From the NCBI RefSeq assembly GCF_011039205.1, contig NZ_JAAKEL010000005.1:124001-188000 (forward strand): a stretch of 64,000 nucleotides of DNA. Reading direction: 5' to 3'. The stretch is from Dysgonomonas sp. ZJ279 (lineage in GTDB: Bacteria > Bacteroidota > Bacteroidia > Bacteroidales > Dysgonomonadaceae). A program made the position numbers and the translations under genes. Of this stretch, positions 1,064-36,255 are shown piece by piece. Position 1 is the stretch's first letter. The number at the start of each line of letters is the position of its first letter. The notes under the pieces are model-generated. The model was not told the DNA's origin, did no database searches, and was given only the letters and a program-made list of their open reading frames with translations.

Positions 1064-1289
1064 TCTTTGTCATCCCGAACTGAAAGGAGGGATTTATTTA
1101 GCCTCCTCAACCCCTCCCAACCCCCTAATCCCCGCAAGGGGGACTAAATGCTCGCCTCTGTCATCCCGATACGCAGTGAGGGATCTTAGCCTCCCCAACC
1201 CCTCCCAAGGAGGGGCTCTTGTATACCCTCTTTGTATTCCTCCCCTTAGGGGAGGTTAGGAGGGGCTATCGTTTCGGAATGACAAAGAG
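1064..1289. repeat. Dispersed palindromic element, composite copy with GC-rich insert
   Basis: The left arm starts GTCATCCCGAACTGAAAGG near 1069 and the right end is CGTTTCGGAATGAC near 1270-1283. Between them lies a second internal left-type arm (GTCATCCCGATACGCAGTG near 1162) and two runs of the kind CCTCCCCAACCCCTCCC / CCCCTTAGGGGAGG. It fills most of the 807-1413 gap, which otherwise shows only a terminator. It looks like two repeat cores fused with a C-rich module. The short ORFs over it are not credible genes. Confidence 0.75.
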
Positions 1290-1354
1290 AATGATAGTTA
1301 CAATTACAATCAATTCGTTGACAACTCATACTTCCTTTTAAAAAATTAAAGGAC

Positions 1355-1398
1355 AAAAAAAATACGGCTGCCTCAATATGAAGCAGTCGTATTTTTTT
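1355..1398 (-). terminator. Rho-independent terminator of the 1414-2199 lipoprotein gene
   Basis: The arms AATACGGCTGC and GCAGTCGTATT pair with one G-U across an 11-base loop, and both ends are flanked by A/T runs. Read on the minus strand the hairpin is followed by eight T, just after the stop of the lipoprotein gene. Confidence 0.8.
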
Positions 1399-1413
1399 AT
1401 AATAGAAGTATAT

Positions 1414-2199
1414 TTATTTTGCACTCTTAGGCAGTGCATCGATCCATTGAATTTGATTCGTATTCAGAGCATCGCCGTAATCAGTAAGAGACCATAAGAT
1501 TGATTGTAATTCTACACATTGATCATTATATGCCTCTTCTCCCTTTTCAAATTCTTCATAATTTATCTTTTTATCTGCTAATCTGTTGCACAGATCAACT
1601 ATTAAAGACGAGTTAGATACTACTCCCCATTTGTACGTCTCTGATGACGATGAAGAGCTCTTGCTATTATTTCCACAATACATGAGTAAAACAAATCCTA
1701 ATGTTTTATTGCCGGCTGGAACTTTAACACTCACTTTTTTCAACAAAACACCATTTTGATAATCCCCCGAGTTGGATACTATAATTGTTCCTGCAGGAAA
1801 TGTAACTTCTATGTCTTGTGCTGTTGTATTTTTAAGAGGAATATATAGGCTTACATAGTAACCACTACCCATTACTACATCAACTTCAGCAGAAGCCTTC
1901 GTAATAAAATCACTTACTAATTGAGAAGATAATTTAGATTCTTTCGAAGCGAGGGATTTATAGTAATGACTTCTACTTCCAGTAATTACACCATCTAAAG
2001 TTATACCTGTGGGTAAAACGAACGGTGTCCCCGTAAGCTCACCTTCTTTATCTCCTAGTCCTGAAATCAGACCCGGAGTGTCAACAACAACATTATTGTC
2101 AATAGGATTGTCATTGTCATCATCACTACTACAAAATGTAAAAGAAAGTGCAAGGCATAGCAATAGGGTCAGCCTTAAAACTGAATTTAATTGTCTCAT
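1414..2199 (-). CDS. Lipoprotein of unknown function
   Basis: The 261-residue protein has a type II signal peptide: a hydrophobic stretch at residues 8-21 and the lipobox LSFTFC, with Cys23 as the lipidated residue followed by SSDDDND. An acidic tail after the lipidated Cys is common in surface-exposed Bacteroidota lipoproteins. The middle (about residues 100-180) is rich in beta-type sequence, including a Ser run near residue 183. I do not recognise the family. It is monocistronic, with its own -7 box (TATTTTTG, minus strand, 2241-2248) and a strong terminator. Confidence 0.8.
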   Translation of the reverse strand: MRQLNSVLRLTLLLCLALSFTFCSSDDDNDNPIDNNVVVDTPGLISGLGDKEGELTGTPFVLPTGITLDGVITGSRSHYYKSLASKESKLSSQLVSDFITKASAEVDVVMGSGYYVSLYIPLKNTTAQDIEVTFPAGTIIVSNSGDYQNGVLLKKVSVKVPAGNKTLGFVLLMYCGNNSKSSSSSSETYKWGVVSNSSLIVDLCNRLADKKINYEEFEKGEEAYNDQCVELQSILWSLTDYGDALNTNQIQWIDALPKSAK

Positions 2200-2240
2200 A
2201 AATAAAAATATTGTTATAATTTGTAAAATTTAGTACGTGG

Positions 2241-2248
2241 CAAAAATA
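2241..2248 (-). promoter_or_regulatory. -7 promoter box (TATTTTTG)
   Basis: This matches the Bacteroidota -7 consensus TAnnTTTG on the minus strand, about 42 bases before the lipoprotein start. The divergent gene has the same box at 2337-2344. Confidence 0.55.
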
Positions 2249-2336
2249 CACTATATATTTAACATTTCAAATTATATTAAGTATTATATGTGGTAACTAT
2301 TATCAGTCATCATAAAGACATTCTATATATTATTCC

Positions 2337-2344
2337 TATTTTTG
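2337..2344 (+). promoter_or_regulatory. -7 promoter box (TATTTTTG)
   Basis: This exact TAnnTTTG match lies 27 bases before the start of the glycosidase lipoprotein gene. Confidence 0.6.
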
Positions 2345-2371
2345 TAGGCTAAATAAACAACGTATTCAACT

Positions 2372-3919
2372 ATGAAGCGAAATAACATCCTTTATCTGTC
2401 GATAATAACCATTTTTCTTACCATCCTTTCATCTTGTGGAACACAAAAACAGCAAGTGAAATTTGCCGATCTAAAGAACCCTAAAAGAGAGTTTAGAGGT
2501 GCATGGTTGAGCACAGCATGGCAATCACGTTACCGTACTATGAGTCCGGAGCAGATGAAAGCATACTTCGTGAGATCGTTAGATCAACTGCAAGCCGACG
2601 GTATCAATGCTATAATTTTTCAGGTACGCCCACAATCCGATACATTCTACAAATCGAATCTCGAACCTTGGAGTGCTCATCTCACAGGTACACAGGGAAA
2701 AGCTCCGCAAGGTAATTTCGATCCATTGGCTTTTCTGATAGAAGAATGCCATAAACGTAATATGGAACTGCATGCATGGCTCAATCCTTATCGTGTAACA
2801 ACCAGTACAAACGATCAATTAGTCAGCAATCACTTATATTACAGAGAACCCGAACGCTTCGTAACCTTTGGCGGCAAGATATATTTCGATCCGGGTATTC
2901 CTAAAAATCAGGAATACATCTGTCAGGTAGTGAAAGATATAGTTATGCGTTACGATGTAGATGCTATTCACATGGACGACTATTTCTATCCTTACCCTAT
3001 TATGGGCGAAGGCTTCCCCGATGAAAAAAGTTTCAATACATACGGAAAACAGCAAGGATATACAGGAAACCAACTGGGTGACTGGCGACGCAACAATGTG
3101 AATACGCTGATCAAAGATGTAAAATATACAATTGCAAGCACTAAGCCTTGGGTGCGTTTCGGTATCAGTCCGTTTGGGATCTATCGTAATGTGAAAAATA
3201 CCCCTGATGGCTCGGGTAGTAACACAAATGGTTTGCAGAATTACGATGATCTGTATGCAGACGTGAAACTATGGGTCGAAAAAGGCTGGATAGATTACAA
3301 CATGCCTCAGATATATTGGGAAATAGGACATACTGCTGCCGACTATAAGACGCTGATTAACTGGTGGGCTGCCAATAATTTCGGACAACCGCTCTATATC
3401 GGTCAAGATGTGAAGCGTACTATGGATGCTAAAACTGCTACGGGCGATACCCAACTTGCCGAAAAGATGTTATTGTCTCGCAGTTTTCCGACTGTGCACG
3501 GTAATTGTTTCTGGCCTGCATACGAGTTGCTTGACAACTACAAAGGAATAGAGGATCAGCTTCGCAAGAACTATCACCGCTATCCTGCACTTATTCCTGC
3601 ATATACACATATGCACGATAAACAACCTAAGACAATAGGTAAGATAAAAGAAGAATATACCCAGACTGCTCATATTCTCCATTGGACAAGCAATCATGAA
3701 AAATATGATCCCGAAACAGCTCAATATTATGTAGTGTATCGCTTTGCGAAAGGAGAACCGGAAAATATAGAAAATGCACAGAATATTGTGGCTATAACCC
3801 GAGAAACAAGCTGTGTATTACCTTACGAAGGAGGGAAGAAGCAATATAAGTATGTTGTGACTGCTGTAGATGCTTTCCATAACGAATCGAAGGGTAAATC
3901 GAAAAAGATAAAACTGTAA
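2372..3919 (+). CDS. Family-10-like glycosidase lipoprotein (GHL10, YngK-type)
   Basis: The 515-residue protein has a lipobox (LTILSSC, Cys22) and should be anchored in the envelope. The TIM-barrel region begins at REFRGAWLSTAWQSRY and carries family marks: the QADGINAIIFQVRP strand, HAWLNPYRV, AIHMDDYFYPYP with paired aspartates, and FGISPFGIYRN. The C-terminal 100 residues look like a fibronectin-III or Ig-like module (HILHWTSN, YYVVYRFAKGE, YKYVVTAVDAFHNES). Related proteins (PF02638) are thought to act on peptidoglycan or other glycans; the substrate here is unknown. It has its own promoter and precedes the rRNA methyltransferase gene by 69 bases. Confidence 0.88.
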   Translation: MKRNNILYLSIITIFLTILSSCGTQKQQVKFADLKNPKREFRGAWLSTAWQSRYRTMSPEQMKAYFVRSLDQLQADGINAIIFQVRPQSDTFYKSNLEPWSAHLTGTQGKAPQGNFDPLAFLIEECHKRNMELHAWLNPYRVTTSTNDQLVSNHLYYREPERFVTFGGKIYFDPGIPKNQEYICQVVKDIVMRYDVDAIHMDDYFYPYPIMGEGFPDEKSFNTYGKQQGYTGNQLGDWRRNNVNTLIKDVKYTIASTKPWVRFGISPFGIYRNVKNTPDGSGSNTNGLQNYDDLYADVKLWVEKGWIDYNMPQIYWEIGHTAADYKTLINWWAANNFGQPLYIGQDVKRTMDAKTATGDTQLAEKMLLSRSFPTVHGNCFWPAYELLDNYKGIEDQLRKNYHRYPALIPAYTHMHDKQPKTIGKIKEEYTQTAHILHWTSNHEKYDPETAQYYVVYRFAKGEPENIENAQNIVAITRETSCVLPYEGGKKQYKYVVTAVDAFHNESKGKSKKIKL

Positions 3920-3957
3920 GGGATTACTGTTTTTATAATTAAGTAAACAACTAAAAA

Positions 3958-3970
3958 AGGTCACCGACCT
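3958..3970 (+). promoter_or_regulatory. Small 5' UTR hairpin AGGTC-acc-GACCT
   Basis: A five-pair stem with a three-base loop ends 18 bases before the start codon of the methyltransferase gene. A very similar AAGGTC-tgc-GACCTT hairpin lies before cysE (55090-55104). Confidence 0.4.
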
Positions 3971-3988
3971 CAATAATAAAAAGACAGA

Positions 3989-5155
3989 ATGAACGGACGG
4001 AATTTTGCAATGATAGCCAAAACAATGGCAGGCCTCGAAGAAGTATTAGCTGAAGAACTAATAGGACTAGGTGCTAATAATCTCGAAATAGGAACTCGAA
4101 TGGTTTCTTTCGAAGGAGATCTCGCCCTTCTTTACAGAGCCAATATACAGTGCCGCACGGCTCTGCGCATATTGCGCCCTGTTTATCAGTTTACTGCACG
4201 GAATGCGGATGATATATACAAGAAGGTAAAAGCCATGAACTGGTATGAGCATATGACAGAAGACAGCACTTTTGCTATCGATGCCATTACTTTCTCCGAA
4301 CTGTTTACGCATTCTAAGTTTGTAGCTTATAGGGTGAAAGATGCCATTGCCGACTACTTTATGCAAAAGACAAGCAAGCGTCCATCTGTGGATGTGAAAG
4401 ACCCTGATCTGCTTATTAACTTCCATATAGCACACGACAAGTGTACATTATCATTCGACAGTTCGGGCGAATCACTGCATAAGAGAGGTTATCGCGTTGC
4501 ACAAACCGAAGCCCCGCTTAACGAGGTGTTAGCCGCAGGAATGATCTTGAAAACAGGATGGCGTGGCGAAAGCGACTTTGTCGATCCCATGTGTGGTTCG
4601 GGAACATTGCTTATCGAAGCTGCCATGATAGCAATGAATGTACCTCCGGGCATTTATCGCAGTAAGTTCGCATTCGAGAAATGGAAAAACTTCAATCAGG
4701 ATCTATTCGATACAATCTACAATGACGATAGTGGCGAGCGTGAGTTCAAATACAAAATATATGGCTCGGATATATCAGCCGAGGCTATTGAGATTGCAGC
4801 CGAAAATGTAAAGAGTGCAAATCTTCAGCGACATATCAACCTAGAGGTAAAACCTTTCGAGAAATATGATAAAGCTCCTGCCGAGAAAGGTATTCTGATA
4901 ACCAATCCGCCTTATGGTGAACGTATTCAGCCCGACGATCTGTTTGGTCTGTACGAAATGATAGGTGAACGGTTAAAGCATGTATTTATGGGTTACTCGG
5001 CTTGGATATTGAGCTATCAACGAGAATGTTTTAACAAGATAGGATTGAAACCAACTAAGAAATATCCGTTGGTGAACGGTTCGCTGCAATGTGAATTCCG
5101 CAGATATGATATTTTTGCGGGGAAAAGAACCGAGTTTAAGAAAGGCGATAATTAA
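3989..5155 (+). CDS. THUMP-domain 23S rRNA (guanine-N2)-methyltransferase
   Basis: The 388-residue protein transfers methyl from SAM to a guanine in RNA. The N-terminal THUMP domain spans about residues 1-160 (FAMIAKTMAGLEEVLAEEL at the start). The Rossmann methyltransferase domain follows, with the SAM site DFVDPMCGSGTLLIEAA near residue 195 and the catalytic NPPYGERI near residue 305. It matches the N-terminal half of RlmL and the B. subtilis YpsC group and is full length for the short form. The downstream gene is convergent and the two share a hairpin terminator. Confidence 0.92.
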   Translation: MNGRNFAMIAKTMAGLEEVLAEELIGLGANNLEIGTRMVSFEGDLALLYRANIQCRTALRILRPVYQFTARNADDIYKKVKAMNWYEHMTEDSTFAIDAITFSELFTHSKFVAYRVKDAIADYFMQKTSKRPSVDVKDPDLLINFHIAHDKCTLSFDSSGESLHKRGYRVAQTEAPLNEVLAAGMILKTGWRGESDFVDPMCGSGTLLIEAAMIAMNVPPGIYRSKFAFEKWKNFNQDLFDTIYNDDSGEREFKYKIYGSDISAEAIEIAAENVKSANLQRHINLEVKPFEKYDKAPAEKGILITNPPYGERIQPDDLFGLYEMIGERLKHVFMGYSAWILSYQRECFNKIGLKPTKKYPLVNGSLQCEFRRYDIFAGKRTEFKKGDN

Positions 5156-5217
5156 AGCCTGAATTTTATATAATTAGTAGGAGTCGTCTATACTTTTGTA
5201 ATCATTATGCCTTGTCT

Positions 5218-5300
5218 GTCATCCCGAACTGAAAGGAGGGATCTGCTTTCAGTTATAGTAAGACAACAACAATAGATCCCTCACTACGTATCGGGATGAC
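5218..5300. repeat. Dispersed palindromic element
   Basis: The left arm GTCATCCCGAACTGAAAGG and the right arm ending CTACGTATCGGGATGAC pair imperfectly around a loop of about 30 bases. The element lies between two convergent genes. A remnant of the outer sequence GAGTCGTCTATACTTTTG lies just upstream at about 5181-5198. Confidence 0.85.
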
Positions 5301-5324
5301 AAAAAGAAAGATATACTAATACAA

Positions 5325-5358
5325 AAAAAGAGCTAATGAAAAACATTAGCTCTTTTTT
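5325..5358. terminator. Bidirectional terminator
   Basis: A perfect nine-pair stem (GAGCTAATG, 5330-5338; CATTAGCTC, 5344-5352) with a five-A loop has an A run before and a T run after. It can end both the methyltransferase gene and the minus-strand cluster. Confidence 0.88.
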
Positions 5359-5752
5359 AATCGTCATCGTCGTCACGTCTCTTTTTCTTCTTCTTTTTGC
5401 GGGTGAAGATCGATTTTACTTTCTTCATAGCAAAGCCCATAATCATTGGTTGTGCCATTTCCCACAAGAGTGGTGATACAGCCAATAATCCGGCCAGTAC
5501 CCCTTGAATCAGACCATTGGAACCATGGCTGTTACTATTCTCATTTTCTTTGTCCTCACGTTTCGGAGAACCGCCAAAGCCCAGTTTGCGGCGTACGCCA
5601 TTTAAAGCACCTGTGAATAGGAGCGAAGTGAAATTATTGGTCACATACGACCAGTGTTCGCCTAATCGTGCTTCACCCTCGGCACACTCGCTTCTGAGTA
5701 TTTGTTTCTCCCGGCGGAGAATATTTAACGGTGTTAATTTATTCTGACTCAT
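5357..5752 (-). CDS. Small hypothetical protein with a Lys-rich, Asp-ended tail
   Basis: Starting at MSQNKLTP gives 131 residues; an in-frame start nine codons upstream would overlap the preceding gene more and adds nothing conserved-looking. One hydrophobic segment (GLIQGVLAGLLAVSPLLW) is followed by a run of lysines and arginines and five terminal aspartates. It is the last gene of a YtxH / DUF1469 / hypothetical cluster and overlaps the preceding stop by 14 bases, so it is probably co-translated. The function is unknown; the context suggests an envelope or general-stress role. Confidence 0.75.
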   Translation of the reverse strand: MSQNKLTPLNILRREKQILRSECAEGEARLGEHWSYVTNNFTSLLFTGALNGVRRKLGFGGSPKREDKENENSNSHGSNGLIQGVLAGLLAVSPLLWEMAQPMIMGFAMKKVKSIFTRKKKKKKRRDDDDD

Positions 5753-6122
5753 TCTTATCCAAATTTTGAAGGAAAACAATTATCTTGTTCAATAAGAACA
5801 TTCTAAGTGGTTTTCCACAGATTAATATTATAATCAGAACCAGAATAGAAAATCCTGCCAGAATAGCAAAACCAAGTGCTAAACTTTTTAGCAACTCACC
5901 GATAAAGAAGGCAAGGCCTATAAGTACAAAGAACAGAATAGTAAAGACAAGAGTAATAACTATTAAGCCATACCCCATAGCTGAGGCAGATATGCCAAGC
6001 TTCTCGAAAGCATCAAGCTTGAACAGCTTGATCCTCGTATTGGTATAGCTTAATAGGTCTAACTTAACTTCGTCAAGTAAGGTACTAAAATCTTTATCTT
6101 TTTCTGAATTATTCAGCATCAA
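5739..6122 (-). CDS. Phage-holin-family (DUF1469) membrane protein
   Basis: The 127-residue protein has an N-terminal cytosolic helix (about 1-45) and two long hydrophobic segments (about 48-75 and 80-103), the plan of PF07332 proteins. Despite the family name these are usually chromosomal stress-associated proteins, and no phage genes are nearby. It overlaps the stop of the YtxH gene by 14 bases and the next gene by 14 bases. The start could be either of the two adjacent ATG codons. Confidence 0.82.
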   Translation of the reverse strand: MMLNNSEKDKDFSTLLDEVKLDLLSYTNTRIKLFKLDAFEKLGISASAMGYGLIVITLVFTILFFVLIGLAFFIGELLKSLALGFAILAGFSILVLIIILICGKPLRMFLLNKIIVFLQNLDKNESE

Positions 6123-6318
6123 TCTTACTTGCTAATTCGTCTACTTTTTCTCTTCCTTTATTCGCAGCCGTTTTTACATTACCTTTCACTTTGTCTACAA
6201 GACTATTGATGTCTCTCAACCATTGCTCTTTTTTTTCAGAAGCGGCAACATAACCAACAGCAGCACCTATCGCAGCGCCTACGGCTAAAAACAATAAGTT
6301 AGAACCAGTCTTACCCAT
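6109..6318 (-). CDS. YtxH-domain protein
   Basis: The 69-residue protein has an N-terminal glycine-rich hydrophobic segment (LLFLAVGAAIGAAVGYVAA) followed by an amphipathic charged helix, the hallmark of PF12732 (YtxH). In other bacteria such proteins are induced by general stress. It is the first gene of the three-gene cluster. Confidence 0.85.
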   Translation of the reverse strand: MGKTGSNLLFLAVGAAIGAAVGYVAASEKKEQWLRDINSLVDKVKGNVKTAANKGREKVDELASKIDAE

Positions 6319-6427
6319 AATATTAATTTCTTTAAATTGTTATTTTACTTTTACGTTCCTATTTATAAACAAACAAGTCTTGATCTTGTTTAGTCAAATA
6401 ATCTAAATTCAAAACAGGAAGACTAAA

Positions 6428-6456
6428 TTAGTTCTTTTTTTGATAAGAAGAACTAA
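6428..6456 (-). terminator. Probable terminator of miaB
   Basis: A nine-pair stem (TTAGTTCTT, 6428-6436; AAGAACTAA, 6448-6456) lies 28 bases after the miaB stop. The T run on the minus strand is weak. Confidence 0.45.
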
Positions 6457-6484
6457 AGCATCCCTAAAAAATGAAAATAGGCTT

Positions 6485-7855: not shown

Positions 7856-7915
7856 AGAATCTGTTTTTTAGTATGTTTTTATAAAATTGGTTTGTTTCAA
7901 ACCTGCACAAGTGTA

Positions 7916-7923
7916 CAAAAATA
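7916..7923 (-). promoter_or_regulatory. -7 promoter box (TATTTTTG) for miaB
   Basis: This is a TAnnTTTG match on the minus strand, 60 bases before the miaB start. Confidence 0.5.
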
Positions 7924-7957
7924 CAAAGAAAGTAAAAGAGTAGTGAAGGATAAATGA

Positions 7958-9859: not shown

Positions 9860-9914
9860 CCTTGGGAGGGGTTGGCAGGGCGAGATAGATTTCTCCTTTC
9901 GGTTTGGAATGGCA
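9860..9914. repeat. Decayed copy of the palindromic element
   Basis: Positions 9887-9914 read like a mutated right arm (AGATTTCTCCTTTCGG then TTTGGAATGGCA, against AGATCCCTCCTTTCAG then TTCGGGATGACA). The preceding CCTTGGGAGGGGTTGG matches the GC-rich module of the copy at 1064-1289. The left arm is gone. The rest of the 9646-9949 gap holds only a promoter box. Confidence 0.5.
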
Positions 9915-11628: not shown

Positions 11629-11785
11629 TAGAAGTTGTCTAGACTTTTCAAAATTTTTCGTATTATTTTGTCATCCTGAGGAACGAAGGATCTCTGTTGT
11701 GAGATGCTTCTCTATCGTTCAGCATGACAGAGAGAATAAAAAAACAAATAGAAAAACTTTTGAAAAATCAAGACCACTTCTTAGA
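11629..11785. repeat. Composite mobile-like element: outer inverted repeats around a hairpin core
   Basis: The outer left end TTAGAAGTTGTCTAGACTTT continuing TCAAAATTTTTC is imperfectly complementary to the outer right end, which begins GAAAAACTTTTGAAAAATCA and ends GACCACTTCTTAG. The core 11670-11728 begins GTCATCCTGAGGAACGAAGG and ends CGTTCAGCATGAC. The element is about 157 bases and has no ORF. A second copy with the same plan is at 32945-33104. The right end overlaps the last codons of the CPBP protease gene (11781). Confidence 0.75.
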
Positions 11786-13759: not shown

Positions 13760-13909
13760 GAAGTCGTCTCGACATTTTCTTTAACCACAGAGTCGCACAT
13801 AGTAACACGGAGTTTTTACAGTTATCAACCAACAGTTATCAGCTATCATGTAGAGCTAAGGGCTATTGGCTAAAAGCTATCAGCTTAAGTCAAAAGTCAA
13901 GAAGAACTC
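13760..13909. repeat. Outer-inverted-repeat element without hairpin core
   Basis: The left end GAAGTCGTCTCGACATTTTC and the right end GTCAAAAGTCAAGAAGAACTC are imperfect inverted repeats of the same type as the ends of 11629-11785 and 14418-14593. The interior differs: ACCACAGAGTCGCACATAG and several repeats of the kind AGTTATCAGCTATC. It occupies much of the 13696-14058 intergenic region and has no ORF. Confidence 0.6.
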
Positions 13910-14058: not shown

Positions 14059-14430
14059 ATGAAACCAGAAAGCATAACTCCAACGAATATCGATGAATAT
14101 ATCGCAACATTTCCTGAATATGTGCAGAATATGATGCAGGAACTCAGATCAACGATTCAACGTGCAGCACCCGATGCCACAGAAAAGATAAGCTGGGGTA
14201 TGCCAACATTCTATCTAAACAGAAATCTTGTTCATTTTGCAGCTTATAAAAAACATATTGGTTTCTATCCCGGAGCTTCGGCAATTGAACTTTTTAAAGA
14301 AAAACTGGACGAGTATAAAACATCGAAAGGGGCTATTCAGTTTTCTATAAATAAACCTCTGCCTGTCGATTTGATTACGCAGATTGTAAAGTATAGAGTG
14401 GAAGAAAATTTAAAGACGAAGTCATCTTGA
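14059..14430 (+). CDS. DUF1801 / YdhG-like protein
   Basis: The 123-residue protein matches PF08818: an N-terminal DEYIATFPEYVQNMMQELRS helix, then ISWGMPTFYLNRNLVHFAAY and HIGFYPGAS, then IQFSINKPLPVDLI. Relatives such as B. subtilis YdhG are frataxin-like and have been linked to iron handling. The last four codons and the TGA stop lie inside the left end of a repeat element that starts at 14418, so the present C-terminus (KSS) is probably element-derived. Confidence 0.85.
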   Translation: MKPESITPTNIDEYIATFPEYVQNMMQELRSTIQRAAPDATEKISWGMPTFYLNRNLVHFAAYKKHIGFYPGASAIELFKEKLDEYKTSKGAIQFSINKPLPVDLITQIVKYRVEENLKTKSS

Positions 14431-14593
14431 CTTTTTGTTTAACCACGGAGTAAAAGGAGTTTCGCAGAGTTTTTTTAGGTTTCTATACTAAAATAAATCA
14501 TATTTTGATGATGAGAAAATCTGTTTTACAGTAATTATTTACTCCGTGATAATCTGTGCAACTCCGTGGTTAGAAGTCAAGACAAACTCGAAG
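14418..14593. repeat. MITE-like element with 'ACCACGGAGT' inner arms
   Basis: The left end GAAGTCATCTTGACTTTTTG plus TTTAACCACGGAGT and the right end ACTCCGTGGTTAGAAGTCAA plus GACAAACTC are long imperfect inverted repeats. The element has no ORF and is about 175 bases. It overlaps the 3' end of the DUF1801 gene and contributes its stop codon. Confidence 0.75.
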
Positions 14594-18942: not shown

Positions 18943-19044
18943 GTCATCCCGATACAAAGTGAGGGATCTACTATGAAGTGAGCTGATAGCTATTAGCCAA
19001 TAATTTCAGGAGACAACAGATCCCTCACTGCGTATCGGGATGAC
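18943..19044. repeat. Dispersed palindromic element
   Basis: The left arm GTCATCCCGATACAAAGTG and the right arm CACTGCGTATCGGGATGAC are almost perfect complements around about 50 bases containing a short AGCTGATAGCTATTAGCC stretch. A GGGGTTAGGAGGCT tail of the GC-rich module follows at about 19060-19077. It lies between two minus-strand genes. Confidence 0.85.
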
Positions 19045-23627: not shown

Positions 23628-23807
23628 AACTATAAAAAAGTAAGAGGGTGTGTCATAAGTAAATGTACACTGTCTAAGTGTTACTCTCTTTTGTCATTCT
23701 GAACGAAGTGAAGAATCTTGACTCTCCATGAGAGATCCTTCACTTCGTTCAGGATGACAATATTATACGAAAAATTACTTATAACGCACCCTCTTACTTT
23801 TATAGTT
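23628..23807. repeat. Element with 'AGAGGGTG' outer inverted repeats around a hairpin core
   Basis: The outer left end AACTATAAAAAAGTAAGAGG (then GTGTGTCATAAGTAA) is complementary, with small gaps, to the outer right end TTACTTATAACGCACCCTCT (then TACTTTTATAGTT). The core at 23693-23758 begins GTCATTCTGAACGAAGTGAA and ends CACTTCGTTCAGGATGAC. The element fills the gap between two convergent genes and could act as a terminator for both. It has no ORF. Confidence 0.8.
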
Positions 23808-26218: not shown

Positions 26219-26448
26219 TTCATCTTGACTTTTAAGCACAGAATAGCACAGAGTGCCACGACGTATTATAAATAAGGGAATTGTTATTAGTATATAAATT
26301 AATATGAGTTAGATATAAACATCATGTAATTATGAGTTATAAGTTAGTAGCTATTTTTCGCCTGTTTTGTCATCCCGAACTGAAAGGAGGGATCTTGATT
26401 AGCCCTTGTCAGTAGGATAATAGATCCCTCCTTTCAGTTCGGGATGAC
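26219..26448. repeat. Repeat cluster: perfect 27-base palindromic core with outer remnants
   Basis: The core at 26369-26448 has perfectly complementary 27-base arms (GTCATCCCGAACTGAAAGGA then GGGATCT) around a 26-base loop. Upstream lie GAGTTAGATATAAACATCAT (about 26305-26325), which recurs inverted at about 36225-36252, and GAGTTCATCTTGACTTTTAA followed by GCACAGAATAGCACAGAG (about 26218-26255). The cluster fills most of 26012-26525; no ORF is credible in it. Confidence 0.85.
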
Positions 26449-26525
26449 AAATTCGCATAATATTTTATTTCCCCTTATTATCGAAACAAGTTCATAAAAA
26501 GCATGCGTATGCATAAACCAAAAAA

Positions 26526-28934: not shown

Positions 28935-29519
28935 ATGGATAAAATTAGTTACGCTTTAGGATTGAGTATTGGTAATAATTTCTTAAGCTCGGGTATTAAA
29001 AAAGTAGACATAGAAGCATTCACAAAAGGAATGCAAGATGTGTTGAACGAGAATCAGCCCGATATGTCGTACGACGAGGCAAAAGAAGTTATAAATGAAT
29101 TTTTTGTTGAATTACAAGCTGGAAGAATGGATCTTAACCTAAAAGCAGGAAAAGAGTTTTTGACTATAAACAAAAACAGACCCGGAGTTGTTACTTTACC
29201 TAGTGGTCTGCAATACGAAATATTGAAAAAAGGAGAAGGTAAAACACCTGTTGCTACCGATCAGGTGAAATGCCATTACCATGGTACGCTTATCGATGGC
29301 ACTGTATTCGATAGCTCTGTACAACGTGGTACGCCTGCTACATTTGGTGTGAATCAAGTAATACCGGGATGGGTAGAAGCTCTTCAATTAATGCCTGTTG
29401 GGTCTAAATGGAAATTGTTTATCCCTTCAGAACTTGCTTATGGTGAAGCCGGTGCAGGTCAATCGATCGAGCCGAATTCGACATTGGTATTCGAAGTAGA
29501 AGTTTTAGATATCGTTTAA
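28935..29519 (+). CDS. FKBP-type peptidyl-prolyl isomerase, cytoplasmic form
   Basis: The 194-residue protein has an N-terminal dimerisation-type helical domain (about 1-85, DKISYALGLSIGNNF) and a C-terminal FKBP domain (about 90-194, KCHYHGTLIDGTVFDSSVQR, GWVEALQLMPVGSKWKLFIP, LAYGEAGAG). There is no signal peptide, so it should work in the cytosol. The next gene, 21 bases away, encodes a lipidated paralogue with nearly the same FKBP domain. Confidence 0.93.
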   Translation: MDKISYALGLSIGNNFLSSGIKKVDIEAFTKGMQDVLNENQPDMSYDEAKEVINEFFVELQAGRMDLNLKAGKEFLTINKNRPGVVTLPSGLQYEILKKGEGKTPVATDQVKCHYHGTLIDGTVFDSSVQRGTPATFGVNQVIPGWVEALQLMPVGSKWKLFIPSELAYGEAGAGQSIEPNSTLVFEVEVLDIV

Positions 29520-29540
29520 TATAATTATTAGAAAAAGAAA

Positions 29541-30533: not shown

Positions 30534-30621
30534 ATAACATAAAGAAACTTACGGGCAATAGTATTTTGATATGACATATTTAATAATTAAAGCAGAATTA
30601 TGTTTTTTGTAAAATATATGT

Positions 30622-30629
30622 TACATTTG
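30622..30629 (+). promoter_or_regulatory. -7 promoter box (TACATTTG) for the Lrp gene
   Basis: This TAnnTTTG match lies 28 bases before the start codon. Confidence 0.6.
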
Positions 30630-30657
30630 AAGTATATAACCTGTAAAAACTAATCTC

Positions 30658-31122
30658 ATGCAAAAAATAGACAAGCTTGACAAAAAGATATTAGAGATAA
30701 TATCTCAAAATGCAAGAATTCCGTTTAAAGATGTCGCTCTAGAATGTGGAGTCTCTCGTGCTGCTATCCATCAACGTGTACAACGTATGATCGAGATGGA
30801 TGTAATTGTAGGCTCGGGGTATTTCATCAATCCTAAAGTATTAGGTTATAATACATGTACTTATATAGGAGTGAAACTTGAAAGAGGATCGATGTACAAA
30901 ACTGTTATTCCCGAACTGGACAAAATTCCGGAAATTGTAGAATCGCATTTTACAACCGGTCCTTATACTATCCTTATCAAGCTTTATGCTAAAGATAATG
31001 AGCATTTGATGGACTTGTTGAACAATAAGATACAAGATATACCGGGAGTGGTAGCTACTGAGACTATGATATCTTTGAGCCAAGGAGTGAAGCGTCAAAT
31101 ACCTATTACAAAGCCTGAGTAA
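30658..31122 (+). CDS. Lrp/AsnC-family transcriptional regulator
   Basis: The 154-residue protein has the AsnC-type HTH at residues 5-55 (LDKKILEIISQNARIPFKDV, then CGVSRAAIHQRVQRMIEMDV) and an RAM ligand-binding domain (about 65-145). It normally forms octamers and responds to amino acids. The target genes are not evident from the neighbourhood. Confidence 0.93.
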   Translation: MQKIDKLDKKILEIISQNARIPFKDVALECGVSRAAIHQRVQRMIEMDVIVGSGYFINPKVLGYNTCTYIGVKLERGSMYKTVIPELDKIPEIVESHFTTGPYTILIKLYAKDNEHLMDLLNNKIQDIPGVVATETMISLSQGVKRQIPITKPE

Positions 31123-31152
31123 AATCGGAAAAGAGATTTAAATCTTTAATTA

Positions 31153-31193
31153 TAAAAAAAGGATAATCGGCGTTCGGCTGATTATCCTTTTTT
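31153..31193 (+). terminator. Terminator of the Lrp gene
   Basis: GGATAATC (31161-31168) pairs with GATTATCC (31180-31187) and is flanked by A and T runs. Confidence 0.85.
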
Positions 31194-31225
31194 ATTTAGA
31201 GAATATAAGTTCAGCTTCCCTCTAT

Positions 31226-31303
31226 GTCATTCCGAAACGCAGTGAGGAATCTACTTTCAACAAAGGTAATGATGACAGATTCCTCACTGCGTTTCGGAAT
31301 GAC
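31226..31303. repeat. Dispersed palindromic element, perfect arms
   Basis: Perfectly complementary 27-base arms start GTCATTCCGAAACGCAGTGA. It is the CATTCC variant of the family and lies between two plus-strand genes, directly after a terminator. An ORF running over it on the minus strand is rejected. Confidence 0.9.
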
Positions 31304-31384
31304 AAGGAAGAATATTAGGATGATAGAAATAAGTGTTAAAGTCAAAATAAAATATAAATACACATTGAGAGAAGAAGAATAGAT

Positions 31385-31672
31385 ATGATAAAAGTTATTG
31401 CAGAAGATTTTATTAAGCCCGAATTCTTGGACGTAGTAAGACCATTGTATGAAGAACTTGTTGCCAAGACTAAACAAGAGAAAGACTGTATCGAATATAA
31501 TCTTTATGTGGATCAGGACGACAAGGGGCATTTTATATTTATCGAAGAATGGCCCGATCACGAAGCATTGGAAGCTCACTGTCAGACGGAGCATTTCAGA
31601 AGGCTTGTTCCCATGATTGATAAACATCAGTCACGAGAGGGTACGGTTTTGATAATGGATTCATTTATGTAA
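31385..31672 (+). CDS. ABM-domain putative quinol monooxygenase
   Basis: The 95-residue ferredoxin-like protein matches the antibiotic-biosynthesis-monooxygenase family (YgiN-like). It has IKVIAEDFIKPEFLD at the N-terminus, EKDCIEYNLYVDQDD in the middle and FIFIEEWPDHEALEAHCQTE. Members oxidise quinols or act as small stress proteins. It is monocistronic. Confidence 0.85.
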   Translation: MIKVIAEDFIKPEFLDVVRPLYEELVAKTKQEKDCIEYNLYVDQDDKGHFIFIEEWPDHEALEAHCQTEHFRRLVPMIDKHQSREGTVLIMDSFM

Positions 31673-31707
31673 GGTAAATATTAAAAATACATAGATGGAA
31701 AAAGTAT

Positions 31708-31750
31708 AAATAAAAGCGAGAGGTGGAATTTTCACCTCTCGCTTTTATCT
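31708..31750. terminator. Bidirectional terminator
   Basis: A perfect 16-pair stem (31710-31725 with 31733-31748) with a seven-base loop lies between convergent genes. Confidence 0.9.
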
Positions 31751-31775
31751 AATTCAATTTTCAGTAACTATCTGT

Positions 31776-32816
31776 TTATATACCTTGAAAAACAAAAGGC
31801 TTTGATGGCGTAAAGTCTTTCAACGCATTTCCGGCATGAGTTTCGCCACTCACCAAATCCAACTTCAGCACTTTGCCTTTTTCTGAGAAATCTATATCCT
31901 TAAAGTTTACCCAAAATATATTAGGGTAGAGAGTCGATTCGAAAAAATAGACTCTGTTCTTCTGATCCGATACAGTTCTCCATCTTGTCGATGAAATATT
32001 AGGCTCGTTTGGTGTACTGATGCCATAAGGTACAGAAGCATTACGTATTACACTGAATACGCTGGCTACATTTATGCGGACATCTTCTACCTGTGGAATA
32101 GCATTTATATAATAAGATGCTCTCACAAACCTATCGGCGGCACGATTCGTTCCGGGTAGCATAGTTGCTCCTCCTATATTCTCCCAATATTTATTGAGAG
32201 CAAGCTGTTCGTCGAATACCGGAGAATTAGTCATCACCTGATACGACCTGTCGTGATGAATTACAAGTTTTCCTTTAATGTATTCGAATATAGCATTATC
32301 GCCTGTTGCATCAGATATAGAAAGATGGAGTGTTGCCATTCTGTCTTCTCCCGGCATATTATCCGAAACGACTTCAAATGTTTCTTTTTCTAGGAAAGAA
32401 ACAGCTTCGTCAACAGTCGCAAAATTGTCGAGTACATACTGTACCCATGCAGCGATAGTAAGACCGGGTTTCTTCTGATCCCATACAGCGTATTCCGATT
32501 CGGCTAACCAAAGTAGATTTGCCACTAATCCCTTTTCATTCATGCCATCCGTACTTGCGATATCGTATGCAGAAGCTATAACACTTCCATACTTAGATGT
32601 CCATTTCAGCGAATTAGGACCCACTTCGCCATTACGTTCCATTCCTCTTGGAAATACCCAGAGATTACTCATTATATCCTCTTTCCAGTCCATACTACGA
32701 GCTGTTAAGATGGTGTTGTTCGGACCCTGATATACTACTCGGGTACACGCTTTGATATCTTCTGCCGATAAGCAGATAATGATAGCTGTAAATAGAAAAC
32801 AGATTGTTTTTTTCAT
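31776..32816 (-). CDS. Choloylglycine-hydrolase family (linear amide C-N hydrolase)
   Basis: The 346-residue N-terminal-nucleophile hydrolase has a signal peptide that would be removed at ...DIKA, exposing Cys24 (CTRVVYQG). Arg40 and Asp43 (TARSMDW) fit the active-site pattern of bile salt hydrolases and penicillin V acylases. The family cleaves conjugated bile salts, penicillin V or acyl-homoserine lactones; the substrate here is undecided. The secreted form is frequent in Bacteroidota. Confidence 0.9.
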   Translation of the reverse strand: MKKTICFLFTAIIICLSAEDIKACTRVVYQGPNNTILTARSMDWKEDIMSNLWVFPRGMERNGEVGPNSLKWTSKYGSVIASAYDIASTDGMNEKGLVANLLWLAESEYAVWDQKKPGLTIAAWVQYVLDNFATVDEAVSFLEKETFEVVSDNMPGEDRMATLHLSISDATGDNAIFEYIKGKLVIHHDRSYQVMTNSPVFDEQLALNKYWENIGGATMLPGTNRAADRFVRASYYINAIPQVEDVRINVASVFSVIRNASVPYGISTPNEPNISSTRWRTVSDQKNRVYFFESTLYPNIFWVNFKDIDFSEKGKVLKLDLVSGETHAGNALKDFTPSKPFVFQGI

Positions 32817-32944
32817 ATTATTTAGTTGTTTATTCTATTAATAACATCTTATATCTGAGATTGTTTAAAGTATAGCGTATTGAAAATAGTATTTGTAAAC
32901 AAAAAAACGAGAACCTATGATTAGGCTCTCGTTTCCATATAATT

Positions 32945-33104
32945 TAAGAAGTCGTTTCGACTTTTTCTTTTTCGTATTATTTTGTCATCCTGAGGAACGA
33001 AGGATCTCTGTTGTGAGATGATTCACTATCGTTCAGCATGACAGAGAGTGTGAAAAAACAAACAAAAAGAAAGCCTTTTGAAAAGTCAATACGAACTCAT
33101 AGTA
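32945..33104. repeat. Composite mobile-like element, second copy of the 11629-11785 type
   Basis: The outer left end GAAGTCGTTTCGACTTTTTC and the outer right end CTTTTGAAAAGTCAATACGA plus ACTC are inverted repeats. The core at 32984-33042 begins GTCATCCTGAGGAACGAAGG and differs from the copy at 11670-11728 at only a few positions. It fills the gap between two minus-strand genes and has no ORF. Confidence 0.8.
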
Positions 33105-33115
33105 TATAATTCTGA

Positions 33116-34570
33116 TTATTTCAGATTTTCCAATGTTTTCAATAGGTAATTATAGAAACGCTCTACGGTATCTATCACAACATATTCGTCGGGAGAGTGT
33201 GGGCACATGATTGTAGGTCCAAAAGAAACAATATCCAATCCCGGTGTACTTCCTAAGATGATACCGCACTCCAGACCTGCATGTACGACTTTCACTTCGG
33301 CTGGTCTGCCAAACATTTCCTGAAACAGATGAGCCATTATATCCATCGTTTTCGATTTGGCATTAGGCTGCCATCCCGGATATGAAGCGTCTATTTCTAC
33401 TTTTGCACCGGCAAGAGCGAATGCACTTTCGAGAGCCGAGCATATCTCGTCTTTACGTGTTTCGGACGAACTGCGGGCAAGCATCTTAGCCTCTACTAAT
33501 CCCGGTGACGATTTTACCGATGCCAGATTTGTAGAAGTTTCTACGATACCTTCGAAGCTGGTAAGCATACTGATAACACCATTCTGACAAGCTACCACAG
33601 CATTGATAAGGCTGTCTTGTATCTCTTCGGGAATAAGCGTTTCGGGAAGTTCTGTTTTTTCTGCTTTGAATATCAGGTTTGGTTCTGTTGCCTTATATTC
33701 TTCTTTGTATATATCTTCGTACTCATTCACCAGATCGATGAGGTCTTGTGTGTCCTCTTGGGGGATAGTAACTATTGCGAATGCTTCGCGAGGGATAGCA
33801 TTGCGCAGCGAACCACCATCGATGGACGATAGGCGTACTTCGTAATCGCGAACTGCATCTTTTAAAAATTGGAACATCAGCTTGTTGGCATTGGCTCTGC
33901 CCAAATGTATTTCACCGCCCGAGTGACCGCCTTTTAATCCGATAAGACTGATCTTATATGCAACGTCACCTTCGGGTACTTCCACATCTTTATATTGGAA
34001 CGAAGCATTTACATCTGCTCCTCCGGCACAACCTACACACAATTCGCCTTCCTCTTCGGTATCAAGATTAAGCATGATGCTTCCTGTAAGGAATCCGGGC
34101 TCTAGTCCGAATGCTCCTGTCATACCGACTTCTTCGTCGATAGTGAAAAGAGCTTCAATTTTGCCGTGTTTGAGGCCTTTGTCTTCCAGTAGAGCCATCA
34201 TGGCAGCTACACCGATACCATTGTCGGCACCAAGTGTTGTAGAACGTGCCTTTACTTTATCGCCATCTATATATGCATCGATAGGATCTTTCGTGAAATC
34301 GTGCTTTACATCCGAGTTCTTTTGCGGAACCATATCCAGATGTGACTGCAATATTACGGTCGGTGTACTCTCCATTCCTGCCGAAGCCGGTTTTGTGATA
34401 AGTACATTGCCTACTTTGTCTTGCTTTGTATCCAAGCCCAACGATTTACCAAAGTCGCATACAAATTTTGTTACTTGGCTCATCTGTGCTGTCGGACGAG
34501 GTATCTGGGTCAATTCATAGAAATGCTCCCAAAGGCGTTGAGGTTTGAGGCTGGTTATTTCTTTCGACAT
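33116..34570 (-). CDS. pepD: Aminoacyl-histidine dipeptidase (M20C, PepD)
   Basis: The 484-residue cytosolic metallopeptidase hydrolyses carnosine-like and other dipeptides. Metal-binding motifs of the M20 family are present: LQSHLDMVPQ (about residue 76), LGADNGIGVAAMMALL, and DEEVGMTGAFGL with the catalytic Glu. GLKGGHSGGEIHLGRAN starts the lid domain. Length and motifs are normal for PepD. The promoter box TACCTTTG is at 34603-34610 on the minus strand. Confidence 0.95.
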   Translation of the reverse strand: MSKEITSLKPQRLWEHFYELTQIPRPTAQMSQVTKFVCDFGKSLGLDTKQDKVGNVLITKPASAGMESTPTVILQSHLDMVPQKNSDVKHDFTKDPIDAYIDGDKVKARSTTLGADNGIGVAAMMALLEDKGLKHGKIEALFTIDEEVGMTGAFGLEPGFLTGSIMLNLDTEEEGELCVGCAGGADVNASFQYKDVEVPEGDVAYKISLIGLKGGHSGGEIHLGRANANKLMFQFLKDAVRDYEVRLSSIDGGSLRNAIPREAFAIVTIPQEDTQDLIDLVNEYEDIYKEEYKATEPNLIFKAEKTELPETLIPEEIQDSLINAVVACQNGVISMLTSFEGIVETSTNLASVKSSPGLVEAKMLARSSSETRKDEICSALESAFALAGAKVEIDASYPGWQPNAKSKTMDIMAHLFQEMFGRPAEVKVVHAGLECGIILGSTPGLDIVSFGPTIMCPHSPDEYVVIDTVERFYNYLLKTLENLK

Positions 34571-34602
34571 AATTATGTTAGTTTAATTTGTTACTAATAT
34601 AA

Positions 34603-34610
34603 CAAAGGTA
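34603..34610 (-). promoter_or_regulatory. -7 promoter box (TACCTTTG) for pepD
   Basis: This TAnnTTTG match on the minus strand lies 32 bases before the pepD start. Confidence 0.6.
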
Positions 34611-34633
34611 AGAAAATATGAGAGGATAGAAGA

Positions 34634-34677
34634 GAAAAAGACTTGGGTTTTAGTCCAAGTCTTTTATATTATGTTAA
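34634..34677. repeat. Hairpin repeat, left copy flanking the redoxin gene
   Basis: The stem AAAAGACTTGG / CCAAGTCTTTT with an eight-base loop is followed by TATATTATGTTAA. The 23 bases 34655-34677 recur exactly at 36043-36065. Terminator-like hairpins are unusual here because the flanking genes are divergent. Confidence 0.8.
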
Positions 34678-34821
34678 ATGCCTGTCTTTGATAAAATATA
34701 GTATTTAAGATATTGTAATACTAAACTGATTTTTATTTAGTTATAATTAAATAGATTGTTAAATTGGAAGAGTTTATAACTCTTAATAGTCATTACCTGT
34801 TTTAACCAAAAATATTATATT

Positions 34822-36012
34822 ATGATGAGGCTTATTTTTTGTGTCTGTCTATTAACTATTTTAATGTCGTGTAGCAACACACCGTCGGATTCCTTTACAT
34901 TAGAAGGTTCTGTTAAGGGTTTAGAAGAAGGTGAAACCATTACATTATTCTATCCGTTGCTCCAAAACGATCAGTGGTGTGCAGTGACTGATACGACAAA
35001 AGTAATAGATGGTAAATTCTTTTTTAAGGGGAAAATCGATGAATTAACTCCTGTCTCATTATATTTGGGGGATATATTTGTTCAACTATATATTGAGCCT
35101 GCTGATATGAAGTTGATGGTGGATATGAGTCAGCCTTATGCCTACGAATTATCAGGAGCCGAGGTCGAAAAAGAAAACATTGAGTTAAAAAAAGAATTAG
35201 CATCCGATGAAAAAAAACAATATGAAAAGCTAATTGAAATCTTAAAGGTACTTGAGCAAATAAATTCATTGACTGATGAGGGACCTGTTCGTGACAGCCT
35301 GATAAATGTTTTTGAACAATGTAGAGCAGAAAGGAATACTATTACTGAAAGGCTGGATAAAACGCGTCTTGACTTTGTTCTGAAGCATAATACTTATCGC
35401 ATAGCTCCTCATTTGCTATATTTGGTTTCAAGAAATGACATTGTCGATGGTAATATGATCAAATCCATTTATAATGGCTTACCGGAACAGTCAAAAGCAA
35501 CTTCAATAGGTAAGCTTGCTTTTAAGCAGATTGAAAGTCAGGAGATGGCTGGTAATTCTATGGTTGGTGGTATCGCCCCCGATTTTAAAGTTGAAGATTT
35601 GTCAGGGAAAACTGTACAGTTGTCTGAATTTAGAAATAACAATTATGTCCTATTAGATTTCTGGGCAAGCTGGTGTGGTCCTTGTATAAAAGAAATCCCT
35701 AAGATGAAGAAAATACATAGTCAATATAAAGAGAAGGGATTGGTGATTATCGGTATATCTTGTGATACCGAAAGAGAAAACTGGCTAAAGGCAGTAGATA
35801 AGCATGAATTGGGTATATGGTCTCAGATTTTGAGTGCTCAGGGTGCAGATAATGCCCTTTTTAATCAAGATGATATAGCTGATTTCTATAAAGTAGACGC
35901 GATACCGTTTTGTGTATTGGTAGACAAGCAAGGAAAGATTGTAGCAAGGTGGCAGCATATTGGCGACGAACAGTTAATTGAGCTAGATAATATTTTAAAA
36001 ACTTCACTTTAG
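34822..36012 (+). CDS. Thioredoxin-like lipoprotein (DUF4369 + TlpA/ResA redoxin)
   Basis: The 396-residue protein has a lipobox (LTILMSC, Cys16). The N-terminal DUF4369-like domain covers about residues 22-115 (FTLEGSVKGLEEGETITLFY). A charged helical linker follows (about 120-190), then the redoxin domain (about 245-390) with WASWCGPCIKEIPK and the redox pair Cys285/Cys288. It would reduce or shuffle disulfides in periplasmic or surface proteins. The gene lies between two copies of a hairpin repeat, which suggests past duplication or insertion. Confidence 0.9.
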   Translation: MMRLIFCVCLLTILMSCSNTPSDSFTLEGSVKGLEEGETITLFYPLLQNDQWCAVTDTTKVIDGKFFFKGKIDELTPVSLYLGDIFVQLYIEPADMKLMVDMSQPYAYELSGAEVEKENIELKKELASDEKKQYEKLIEILKVLEQINSLTDEGPVRDSLINVFEQCRAERNTITERLDKTRLDFVLKHNTYRIAPHLLYLVSRNDIVDGNMIKSIYNGLPEQSKATSIGKLAFKQIESQEMAGNSMVGGIAPDFKVEDLSGKTVQLSEFRNNNYVLLDFWASWCGPCIKEIPKMKKIHSQYKEKGLVIIGISCDTERENWLKAVDKHELGIWSQILSAQGADNALFNQDDIADFYKVDAIPFCVLVDKQGKIVARWQHIGDEQLIELDNILKTSL

Positions 36013-36023
36013 GAATAAACGCA

Positions 36024-36065
36024 AAAAAGACTTGGGGAAATCCCAAGTCTTTTATATTATGTTAA
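36024..36065. repeat. Hairpin repeat, right copy flanking the redoxin gene
   Basis: The stem AAAGACTTGGG / CCCAAGTCTTT with a five-base loop, then TATATTATGTTAA. It can serve as the terminator of the redoxin gene. Its right half is identical to 34655-34677. Confidence 0.82.
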
Positions 36066-36068
36066 CGT

Positions 36069-36255
36069 CAGTTCGATATAAGGAAGGAATGATAAATCTT
36101 CATTCGAATTTGTCATCCCGAACTGAAAGGAGGGATCTCCTCTTGTATAACAAGGAGTAATCAAGATCCCTCACTGCGTTTCGGGATGACAGAGTAAACG
36201 AAAGATATATCTCGGTTCATAACTCAATTATATGATGTTTATATCGAACTCACAC
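36069..36255. repeat. Palindromic element with 'AGTTCGATATAA' outer ends
   Basis: The core at 36112-36190 has the left arm GTCATCCCGAACTGAAAGG and the right arm CACTGCGTTTCGGGATGAC; the two arms belong to different sequence variants of the family, as if recombined. The outer ends AGTTCGATATAA (about 36070) and GTTTATATCGAACTC (about 36238-36252) are inverted repeats. It lies between convergent genes. Confidence 0.75.

Follow-up and report, generated by a model that had tools for sequence, protein, structure and literature searches.

The palindromic repeats scattered between the genes of a 64,000-nucleotide stretch of Dysgonomonas sp. ZJ279 (the window) raise the question of how such a family spreads, and whether its position next to gene 3' ends reflects a function there. 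The original prediction, which listed nine hairpins and a decayed copy, suggested a role in mRNA 3' ends or spread by a transposase. We find that the hairpins are of a known kind and that about half of those examined are embedded in very small transposons from two, probably three, families. This suggests a way for such repeats to spread in a genome where the enzyme usually credited, RAYT, was not found.

Paired REP-like hairpins in the window and across the genome

The window contains 17 occurrences of the arm motif GTCATYCYGA, where 100 shuffles give an expectation of 0.40. A pairing rule returned nine cores (1160-1283, 5218-5300, 11670-11728, 18943-19044, 23693-23758, 26369-26448, 31226-31303, 32984-33042 and 36112-36190) and one additional single arm (1069-1095), all within the coordinates predicted from the sequence. 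The nine hairpins are thus real, and they recur genome-wide: the full-genome arm search that had been proposed gave 35 full cores with a strict pattern in 4.10 Mb and none with the reversed-pattern control, and single-arm matches on the two strands numbered 82 and 79, against 1 and 0 in the control. The predicted borders were too short, as elements reach further out to the ends of what we call shells A, B and C (166-281, 148-151 and 136-151 bp, respectively, in the strict set), and two related elements had been overlooked, at 13760-13909 and 14418-14589. The elements in the window, with no strand assigned, are:

1069-1283: composite of a single A-type arm (1069-1095) and an A-type pair (1160-1283), with loop palindromes CCTCCCC/GGAGGGG; no shell recognised
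5218-5300: A-type core with unlike arms, ACTGAAAG and TACGTAGT; the strict setting reveals no shell
9860-9914: putative decayed copy, missed by the pairing rule; by eye a degenerate right arm plus a CCTTGGGAGGGG inset
11631-11780: shell C element of 150 bp, core 11670-11728, TTA at both flanks
13760-13909: shell C with other cargo, a ACCACAGAG half and an AGCT-rich palindrome; AGT at both flanks
14418-14589: shell C with other cargo, 172 bp, cargo ACCACGGAG...CTCCGTGGTT; flanks GAC/GAA, no exact duplication
18943-19044: A-type core whose inner palindrome is long; the strict setting reveals no shell
23644-23793: shell B element of 150 bp, core 23693-23758, inverted flanks AAAAAGTAA and TTACTTTT
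26303-26490: shell A element of 188 bp, core 26369-26448
31226-31303: A-type core with arms ATTCC/GGAAT; no shell recognised
32948-33098: shell C element of 151 bp, core 32984-33042, without an exact 3-bp duplication
36066-36254: shell A element of 189 bp, core 36112-36190 with unlike arms, flanks TTATGTTAA and CTATGTTAA matching at 8 of 9 positions

Each arm is a REP-like unit: a TGTC tag leads into a covarying ATYCY/RGRAT stem, and after a G.A step come a short inner stem and a GNA triloop. The stem begins with AT and runs for 5 bp up to the G.A step, followed by the inner stem and the loop. Four matched stem types cover 135 of 143 arms, 127 of 140 arms close a GNA loop, and T precedes GTC in 98% of 174 flanks, which corresponds to the TGTC variant of the tag. 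Judged by sequence and covariation, two such units in inverse order make up the GTCAT...ATGAC core, and pairs with outward tags are the main form among the listed elements.

Compensatory change between the two arms of a core, which had also been expected, is supported for one class of cores and not for the other. The arms are identical in 28 of 54 A-type pairs (re-pairing mean 5.7, maximum 13 in 1000 re-pairings), whereas only 1 of 31 B/C-type pairs has identical arms, against 1.4 on re-pairing; the latter are therefore mostly heterodimers and lend no support to compensation between arms. Rfam at gathering thresholds gave no match in the window, and of 217 papers that contain one or more of the four arm 10-mers, the 30 listed looked unrelated, judging from title and abstract start.

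Short transposon-like shells around the cores

At strict settings, 49 of the 96 examined cores lie inside longer elements with both shell ends (20 in shell A, 15 in B and 14 in C), while the same settings found both ends at 0 of 322 random sites. With looser criteria (5-6 errors) both ends are apparently present around 65 of the 96 cores; the strict set was used because A ends at 5 errors amount to noise (51 of 322 random places). We consider it likely that the elements are MITEs carrying a CGTC-type REP pair, with the core spreading as a passenger of DDE-type shells. The 47 cores without a recognised end pair at the strict setting count against this reading; they may be decayed or shell-free. 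Around the cores of five relatives' loci (L017, L018, L019, L023 and L055), no outer ends were seen by eye.

Shells A and C are short and non-coding with terminal inverted repeats, and the lengths of B and C elements are near-constant. A 9-bp target duplication flanks shell A and a 3-bp one shell C, both reached in 0 of 1000 permutations (lengths 2-12 tried), the duplication of shell A being modest on average (0.60 vs 0.52). For shell B, the best length was 3 (35 of 1000 permutations, uncorrected for 11 lengths), a weak signal at most, and its inverted flanks were reached in 5 of 1000 permutations in a looser set of 19. A comparison of joined flanks with the collected loci returned three self-matches and one weak 63-base match, and neither an empty site nor any movement was seen among them.

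The core of about every second copy examined lies centrally in a short non-coding element that fits a MITE of a DDE insertion-sequence family. A transposase acting in trans on the shell would carry the core along as passenger DNA, and the core could conceivably have entered by inserting into the loop of a palindrome that was already there. The 150-190 bp QMITE2 of Coxiella burnetii (PMC5896051) is similar in that, as far as its available description goes, it has direct repeats, contains a REP and is found mostly in intergenic or 3' untranslated sequence. It differs in that a GTAG REP and a single MITE family are described there, whereas ZJ279 has a CGTC-type pair and shells of three kinds, one of which also occurs with other cargo.

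Candidate partner insertion sequences and the question of RAYT

The ends of shell A match IS982-family loci of sister species; in one locus (L302) one end is identical to the A type over 19 bases, and two others (L285, L308) have an A-type end with one difference. The relative G015 has an uninterrupted transposase of the IS982 type (L271). C-type ends surround PF13340/PF01609 pieces of a broken IS5-type element in ZJ279 itself (C55:1893-2816), and an IS5-type element with such ends is also present in a relative (G006); the IS5-type copies seen were broken, and no intact parent was seen in the ZJ279 genome. On the evidence of ends, duplications and partner elements, shell A fits a MITE of the IS982 family and shell C one of the IS5 family. 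Shell B is perhaps a MITE of the IS1182 family, whose ends it resembles loosely: an IS1182 gene (L286, genome G022) with GAGGCTGTTCC-type ends was found with the end motif of the copies in G005 at up to 4 mismatches but not with the B motif of ZJ279, and B-like sequence is also present in an ordinary terminator (L279). A search of the ZJ279 genome found no IS982 or IS1182 match and 0 matches to PF13751. That the IS982 and IS1182 partners belong to other species, and that the IS5-type copies are broken, counts against a MITE origin. MITECca01 of Cardinium (PMC9769881) is likewise a Bacteroidota MITE with IS982-family ends (about 240 bp); its parent insertion sequence is intact in the same genome, and the available text does not mention a REP pair inside.

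The predicted spread by a transposase agrees with the matching insertion sequence ends and the duplications, but not with the RAYT type expected for REPs. That the elements are REPINs moved by RAYT (TnpA-REP, Y1 transposase), their shells being incidental, appears quite improbable to us. The arm build and the inverse pairing are REPIN-like, and REPIN/RAYT systems as covered by the available text (PMC6006769) also have two inverted REP hairpins as their unit and include, with RAYT subclass 2.6, Bacteroidetes members with atypical hairpins. In addition, PF01797 matches occur in 43 of 101 family genomes, one of them (G090) 673 bases from a copy. However, the element-rich ZJ279 genome has 0 PF01797 matches, and no strict arm lies within roughly 1.5 kb of 49 of 50 Y1 loci of relatives (the 30 best and 20 weaker ones, several of which are truncated at a contig end); moreover, RAYTs leave the shell ends and their 9-bp and 3-bp duplications unexplained. 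RAYT as the mobiliser is unsupported by the ZJ279 genome, the 101 family genomes and the 50 loci checked for nearby arms.

Position relative to genes

In the window, every copy adjoins a gene 3' end as predicted, and none of the 10 elements is located in a divergent gap, according to an ORF-based gene caller that misses some short genes. Genome-wide, neither statement holds without exception. In 60 ZJ279 stretches, which were picked for holding elements so that their background is not a random sample, elements occupy 32 of 53 convergent, 42 of 193 same-direction and 7 of 50 divergent gaps, the latter being avoided but not free of copies. Where a same-direction gap holds a single element, that element is nearer the 3' end in 29 of 38 cases (p 0.0017). 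As to the further claim that no copy interrupts a gene, three single arms of the 96 elements fall within called genes, each one 10-mer match that may be due to chance.

Shells B and A are strongly biased towards 3' ends, whereas no such bias is seen for C. The nearest gene end is a 3' end for 15 of 15 shell B elements and for 7 of 14 shell C elements (background 2132 of 5274), the latter indicating no 3' preference. The bias therefore follows shell or age. It would result from the shell's choice of targets, from a gradual loss of copies upstream of genes, or from both, rather than from a function of the hairpin. As shells with different ends differ in placement within one genome, the cause of the bias (target choice, selection or hairpin function) is testable.

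We regard it as improbable that the hairpins are terminators or stabilisers of mRNA 3' ends which are retained there by selection. This explanation would account for the 3'-end enrichment and is consistent with the strong RNA folds predicted for the window hairpins; shell B also speaks for it, with a 3' end nearest in all 15 cases and a T-rich outside (at least 5 T in 23 of 30 outward 8-mers beyond the shell, compared to 16 of 40 for A and 3 of 28 for C). Against it, 1 of 174 core flanks has a T tract (at least 5 T among the 8 bases that follow the hairpin), a consensus scan places a distinct terminator-like site beyond the core in four of the nine window gaps that bear elements (1386-1368, 31751-31707, 32936-32903 and 36025-36053), shell C has no 3' preference, and seven divergent gaps hold elements. 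The flank composition led us to reject the core as an intrinsic terminator, and shell B was kept open, since its outer palindrome does have a T tract directly after it. The suggested role in mRNA 3' ends is unsupported for the hairpin as such, with shell B as a possible exception.

Origin of the core and comparison with known repeats

Shell C encloses other cargo at six places, two of them in the window, and three of the six have exact 3-bp duplications. The same shell can hold a different palindrome, which demonstrates that cargo and shell are separable. By eye, B and C have about 16 bases in common to either side of the core, and A shares TTTCGTNNATTCT, so core and borders are homologous across the shells. 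These shared borders would also fit a single ancestral MITE that held the core and later acquired altered ends through recombination with other insertion sequences, which implies a single capture at most. We consider this somewhat unlikely, because different transposase families and duplication lengths fit the three end types and the C ends also enclose unrelated cargo, although end swapping is still compatible with both observations.

Tentatively, the REP-type hairpin pair may instead be an exchangeable cargo module, taken up within one genus by MITE shells of three unrelated DDE families that swap palindromes. The conserved GNA triloop and the G.A step might then mark selection on single-stranded DNA, perhaps for entry into palindrome loops at replication forks. 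If true, this would explain how CGTC-type REPs spread even though they have no transposase themselves. The ends, duplications and partner elements in ZJ279 point to a concrete route for these REPs, as passengers in MITEs that derive from ordinary DDE insertion sequences, and the GNA-loop arm structure is a testable feature at the DNA level.

According to the available text of Di Nocera et al. 2013 (PMC3733652), CGTC-tagged REPs have an unpaired CGTC tag or a TGTC/CCTC variant at one end and a stem of 8-9 bp starting from AT with a loop of 4-5, are described as having no associated transposase, and occur as dimers inside longer palindromes in two species. The ZJ279 elements share with them the unpaired tag ending in GTC, the AT-starting stem, the outward-tag dimers, the intergenic position mostly not between divergent genes, the occurrence in Bacteroidetes and the lack of an associated Y1 transposase. 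In contrast to that description, the continuous stem in ZJ279 is 5 bp instead of 8-9, with the G.A step and GNA triloop following, the tail is C(T) and not CCA-like, and half of the examined pairs lie in shells that fit DDE families, of which that text reports none. A fuzzy rule applied to 80 loci without a close syntenic relative (1,417,428 bases from a Sir2-based contig scan) found five pairs; four of these, in two Tamlana loci (L191 and L200), look like the same kind and have, by eye, an 8-bp stem.

Abundance and structure of the hairpins

All nine hairpin copies listed in the original prediction are present in the window (G000:C54:124001-188000), which contains 17 occurrences of the arm motif GTCATYCYGA (0.40 expected). 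Searching the whole genome (4.10 Mb in 58 contigs) with the arm and core patterns resulted in 35 strict cores and none for the reversed control, while the single-arm pattern gave 82 and 79 matches on the two strands (control: 1 and 0). The strict core was found in 18 of 101 family genomes, with the highest count in the own genome (35), followed by G090 (32) and the sister species G005 (10). The nearest named relatives are Bacteroidales-type in one protein-based scan, which possibly omits very near records (Bacteroidia bacterium, 79 % identity; Petrimonas, 69 %; Tannerellaceae MAG, 67 %).

The hairpins are real and their general kind is already known. Excerpts of PMC3733652 describe CGTC-tagged REPs that have TGTC variants, tags pointing outward, stems starting with AT and rare placement between divergent genes, and state that no transposase is associated with them. 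Pairs were also observed in the flavobacterial Tamlana (L191: 14298-14339 and 19075-19152; L200: 4937-5014 and 8050-8127). Their arms read GTC-ATTCTGAA-CTTGA-TTCAGAAT and share a full 8-bp stem with the published CGTC families.

Each arm is a hairpin by itself. Within 143 arms from own-genome stretches, the 5' YCY and the 3' RGR covary (CCC/GGG in 83, TCT/AGA in 19, CCT/AGG in 18, TCC/GGA in 15, unmatched in 8). GA precedes RGR in 140 of the 143, facing the GA after YCY; the latter was built into the search pattern and only the second GA is informative. A GNA triloop closed by at least one pair of the inner sequence is formed in 127 of 140 arms (GAA 46, GCA 44, GTA 25, GGA 12), by 17 of 29 distinct inner sequences (500 shuffles: mean 2.6, maximum 8) and by 18 of 21 arms from relatives (L016-L024, L055). 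Excerpts of PMC4686876 describe extraordinary stability and nuclease resistance for DNA mini-hairpins whose loops are GNA or GNNA. The arms may behave alike, although the stems in that paper are stronger than theirs.

About half of the examined copies lie within longer elements

Conservation beyond GTC...GAC runs by class. For 96 distinct paired cores, drawn from 80 own-genome stretches (the window, L075-L133 and L134-L153), both shell ends were recognised in 49 (at most 4 errors for A and C, at most 5 for B) compared with 0 of 322 random positions; 47 had no recognised end pair at these strict settings. By this count, roughly half of the cores examined are carried as cargo in MITE-like shells. 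Genome-wide, ends with at most 3 mismatches numbered 33 + 27 for C (control: 3 + 3) and 24 + 25 for A (control: 2 + 1). Class C may be the youngest, as it is the most uniform.

Shell classes: core length; ends; mean pairwise identity; at least 5 T in the outward 8 bases
Class C: 58-59 bp; GAAGTCGTCTTGACTTTT; 0.88; 3/28
Class B: 66-67 bp; GAGGGTGTGTCATAAGTAA; 0.79; 23/30
Class A: mostly 78-82 bp; AACGTGAGTTCGATATAA; 0.57; 16/40

For k = 2-12, the k bases preceding the left end were compared with the k bases following the right end (1000 permutations). Class A peaked at k = 9 (0.60 versus 0.52, 0/1000; k = 10: 6/1000; k = 7: 26/1000); for class C the peak lay at k = 3 (0.86 versus 0.43, 0/1000; every other length at least 122/1000). 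Both flanks read TTAAAATAA in L145, for example, and TTATTTTAA in L097. Class B gave no clear duplication signal over k = 2-12 (best k = 3, 35/1000). Its flanks showed inverted similarity (5/1000; looser set, n = 19), which together with their outward T-richness is as expected if B sits within a terminator-like palindrome.

In the window, near-identical terminator hairpins (AAAAGACTTGGG...AAGTCTTTT), each followed by the same ATATTATGTTAA, lie at 34636-34665 and 36025-36053. A shell A element starts directly at the 36.0-kb hairpin/ATATTATGTTAA and none at 34.6 kb; the latter was rejected as a full empty site because the right sides differ.

Shell C also swaps its cargo. At six places (C4, C22, C35, C55:24283 and, in the window, 13760-13909 and 14418-14589) C-type ends surround other content that shares ACCACAGAG/ACCACGGAG-type palindromes, at C55:24283 just a short remnant; exact 3-bp duplications flank three of the six. 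Within the window, these palindromes make up another dispersed repeat alongside the GTCAT cores. A-type end pairs at C8 and C58 enclose just one arm, closed by a GAC of its own; this resembles a deletion between the arms. As a further nesting layer, CCTCCCC...GGAGGGG palindromes occupy the loop or replace an inner arm of A-type cores (window 1160-1283; L109, L096, L126). Clusters in L086 (3078-4123) and L113 (3094-4351) each hold four A-type cores interleaved with GCGTAAA-type repeats (TTTACGCAnTTTACGCA).

Placement depends on the shell

Using an ORF-based gene caller made for this analysis, we found elements in 32 of 53 convergent, 42 of 193 same-direction and 7 of 50 divergent gaps. The predicted tracking of gene 3' ends held for class B (nearest end a 3' end in 15/15) and class A (17/20), but not for class C (7/14), against a background of 2132 of 5274 points; copies with no shell gave 30/45. 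Divergent placement was seen for 3 of 14 C versus 1 of 35 A and B elements (p 0.065). The bias depends on the shell. Either B and A prefer such targets, or copies are slowly lost elsewhere; both readings fit these data.

Candidate parent insertion sequences

Parent families were identified for A and C, and a possible one for B. For C, an insertion sequence of 924 bp bounded by C-type ends (C55:1893-2816, own genome) contains two open pieces that match PF13340 and PF01609; its best NCBIfam model is IS5, with a score under the cut-off. A copy in G006 (L280) is 89 % and 93 % identical in these pieces, and two more own-genome PF13340 matches both contain stops. One and the same C-type insertion-sequence end is found on the contig ends C22:25242-25388 and C17:1-147 (L136, L137); the assembly may thus have split a further IS5-type copy.

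For A, IS982-family transposases (NF033520; L271 and L283 above cut-off) with A-related ends were found in sister species, L283 carrying CCTGAGTTCGACCTAA at both ends. The motif CNTGAGTTCG occurs in 8 of 21 loci grouped as IS982, which overlap so that the eight represent five distinct places, compared with 1 of 29 loci of other transposases. Among these hits, a remnant in G014 (L302) has an end identical to the class A end across 19 bases; L308 and L285 differ at one. The IS1182-family gene L286 (NF033551 above cut-off) has GAGGCTGTTCC-type ends, a looser match to class B. Profile searches of the own genome gave no match to PF13612, PF13751 or PF01797 and the IS5-type copies seen in it are broken; hence no parent was found there for A or B, and a broken one for C.

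Excerpts of the literature describe a Coxiella MITE holding a GTAG REP, mainly in 3' untranslated regions (PMC5896051), and a Cardinium MITE derived from IS982 (PMC9769881). No report of the same REP pair occurring in MITE shells that belong to several IS families was seen in the open-licence literature searched.

In G005, most of the ten copies are nearly identical, and L016, the only one read in its entirety, lies within GAGGCTGTCCCAAAAGTAA ends, so a recent burst is likely judging from these sequences. In G090, L055 encodes a RAYT-like Y1 transposase of 184 aa (3674-4228, gene strand), and 673 bases downstream of it lies an element. Among 50 Y1 loci from relatives (30 best and 20 weaker), no other has an arm so near.
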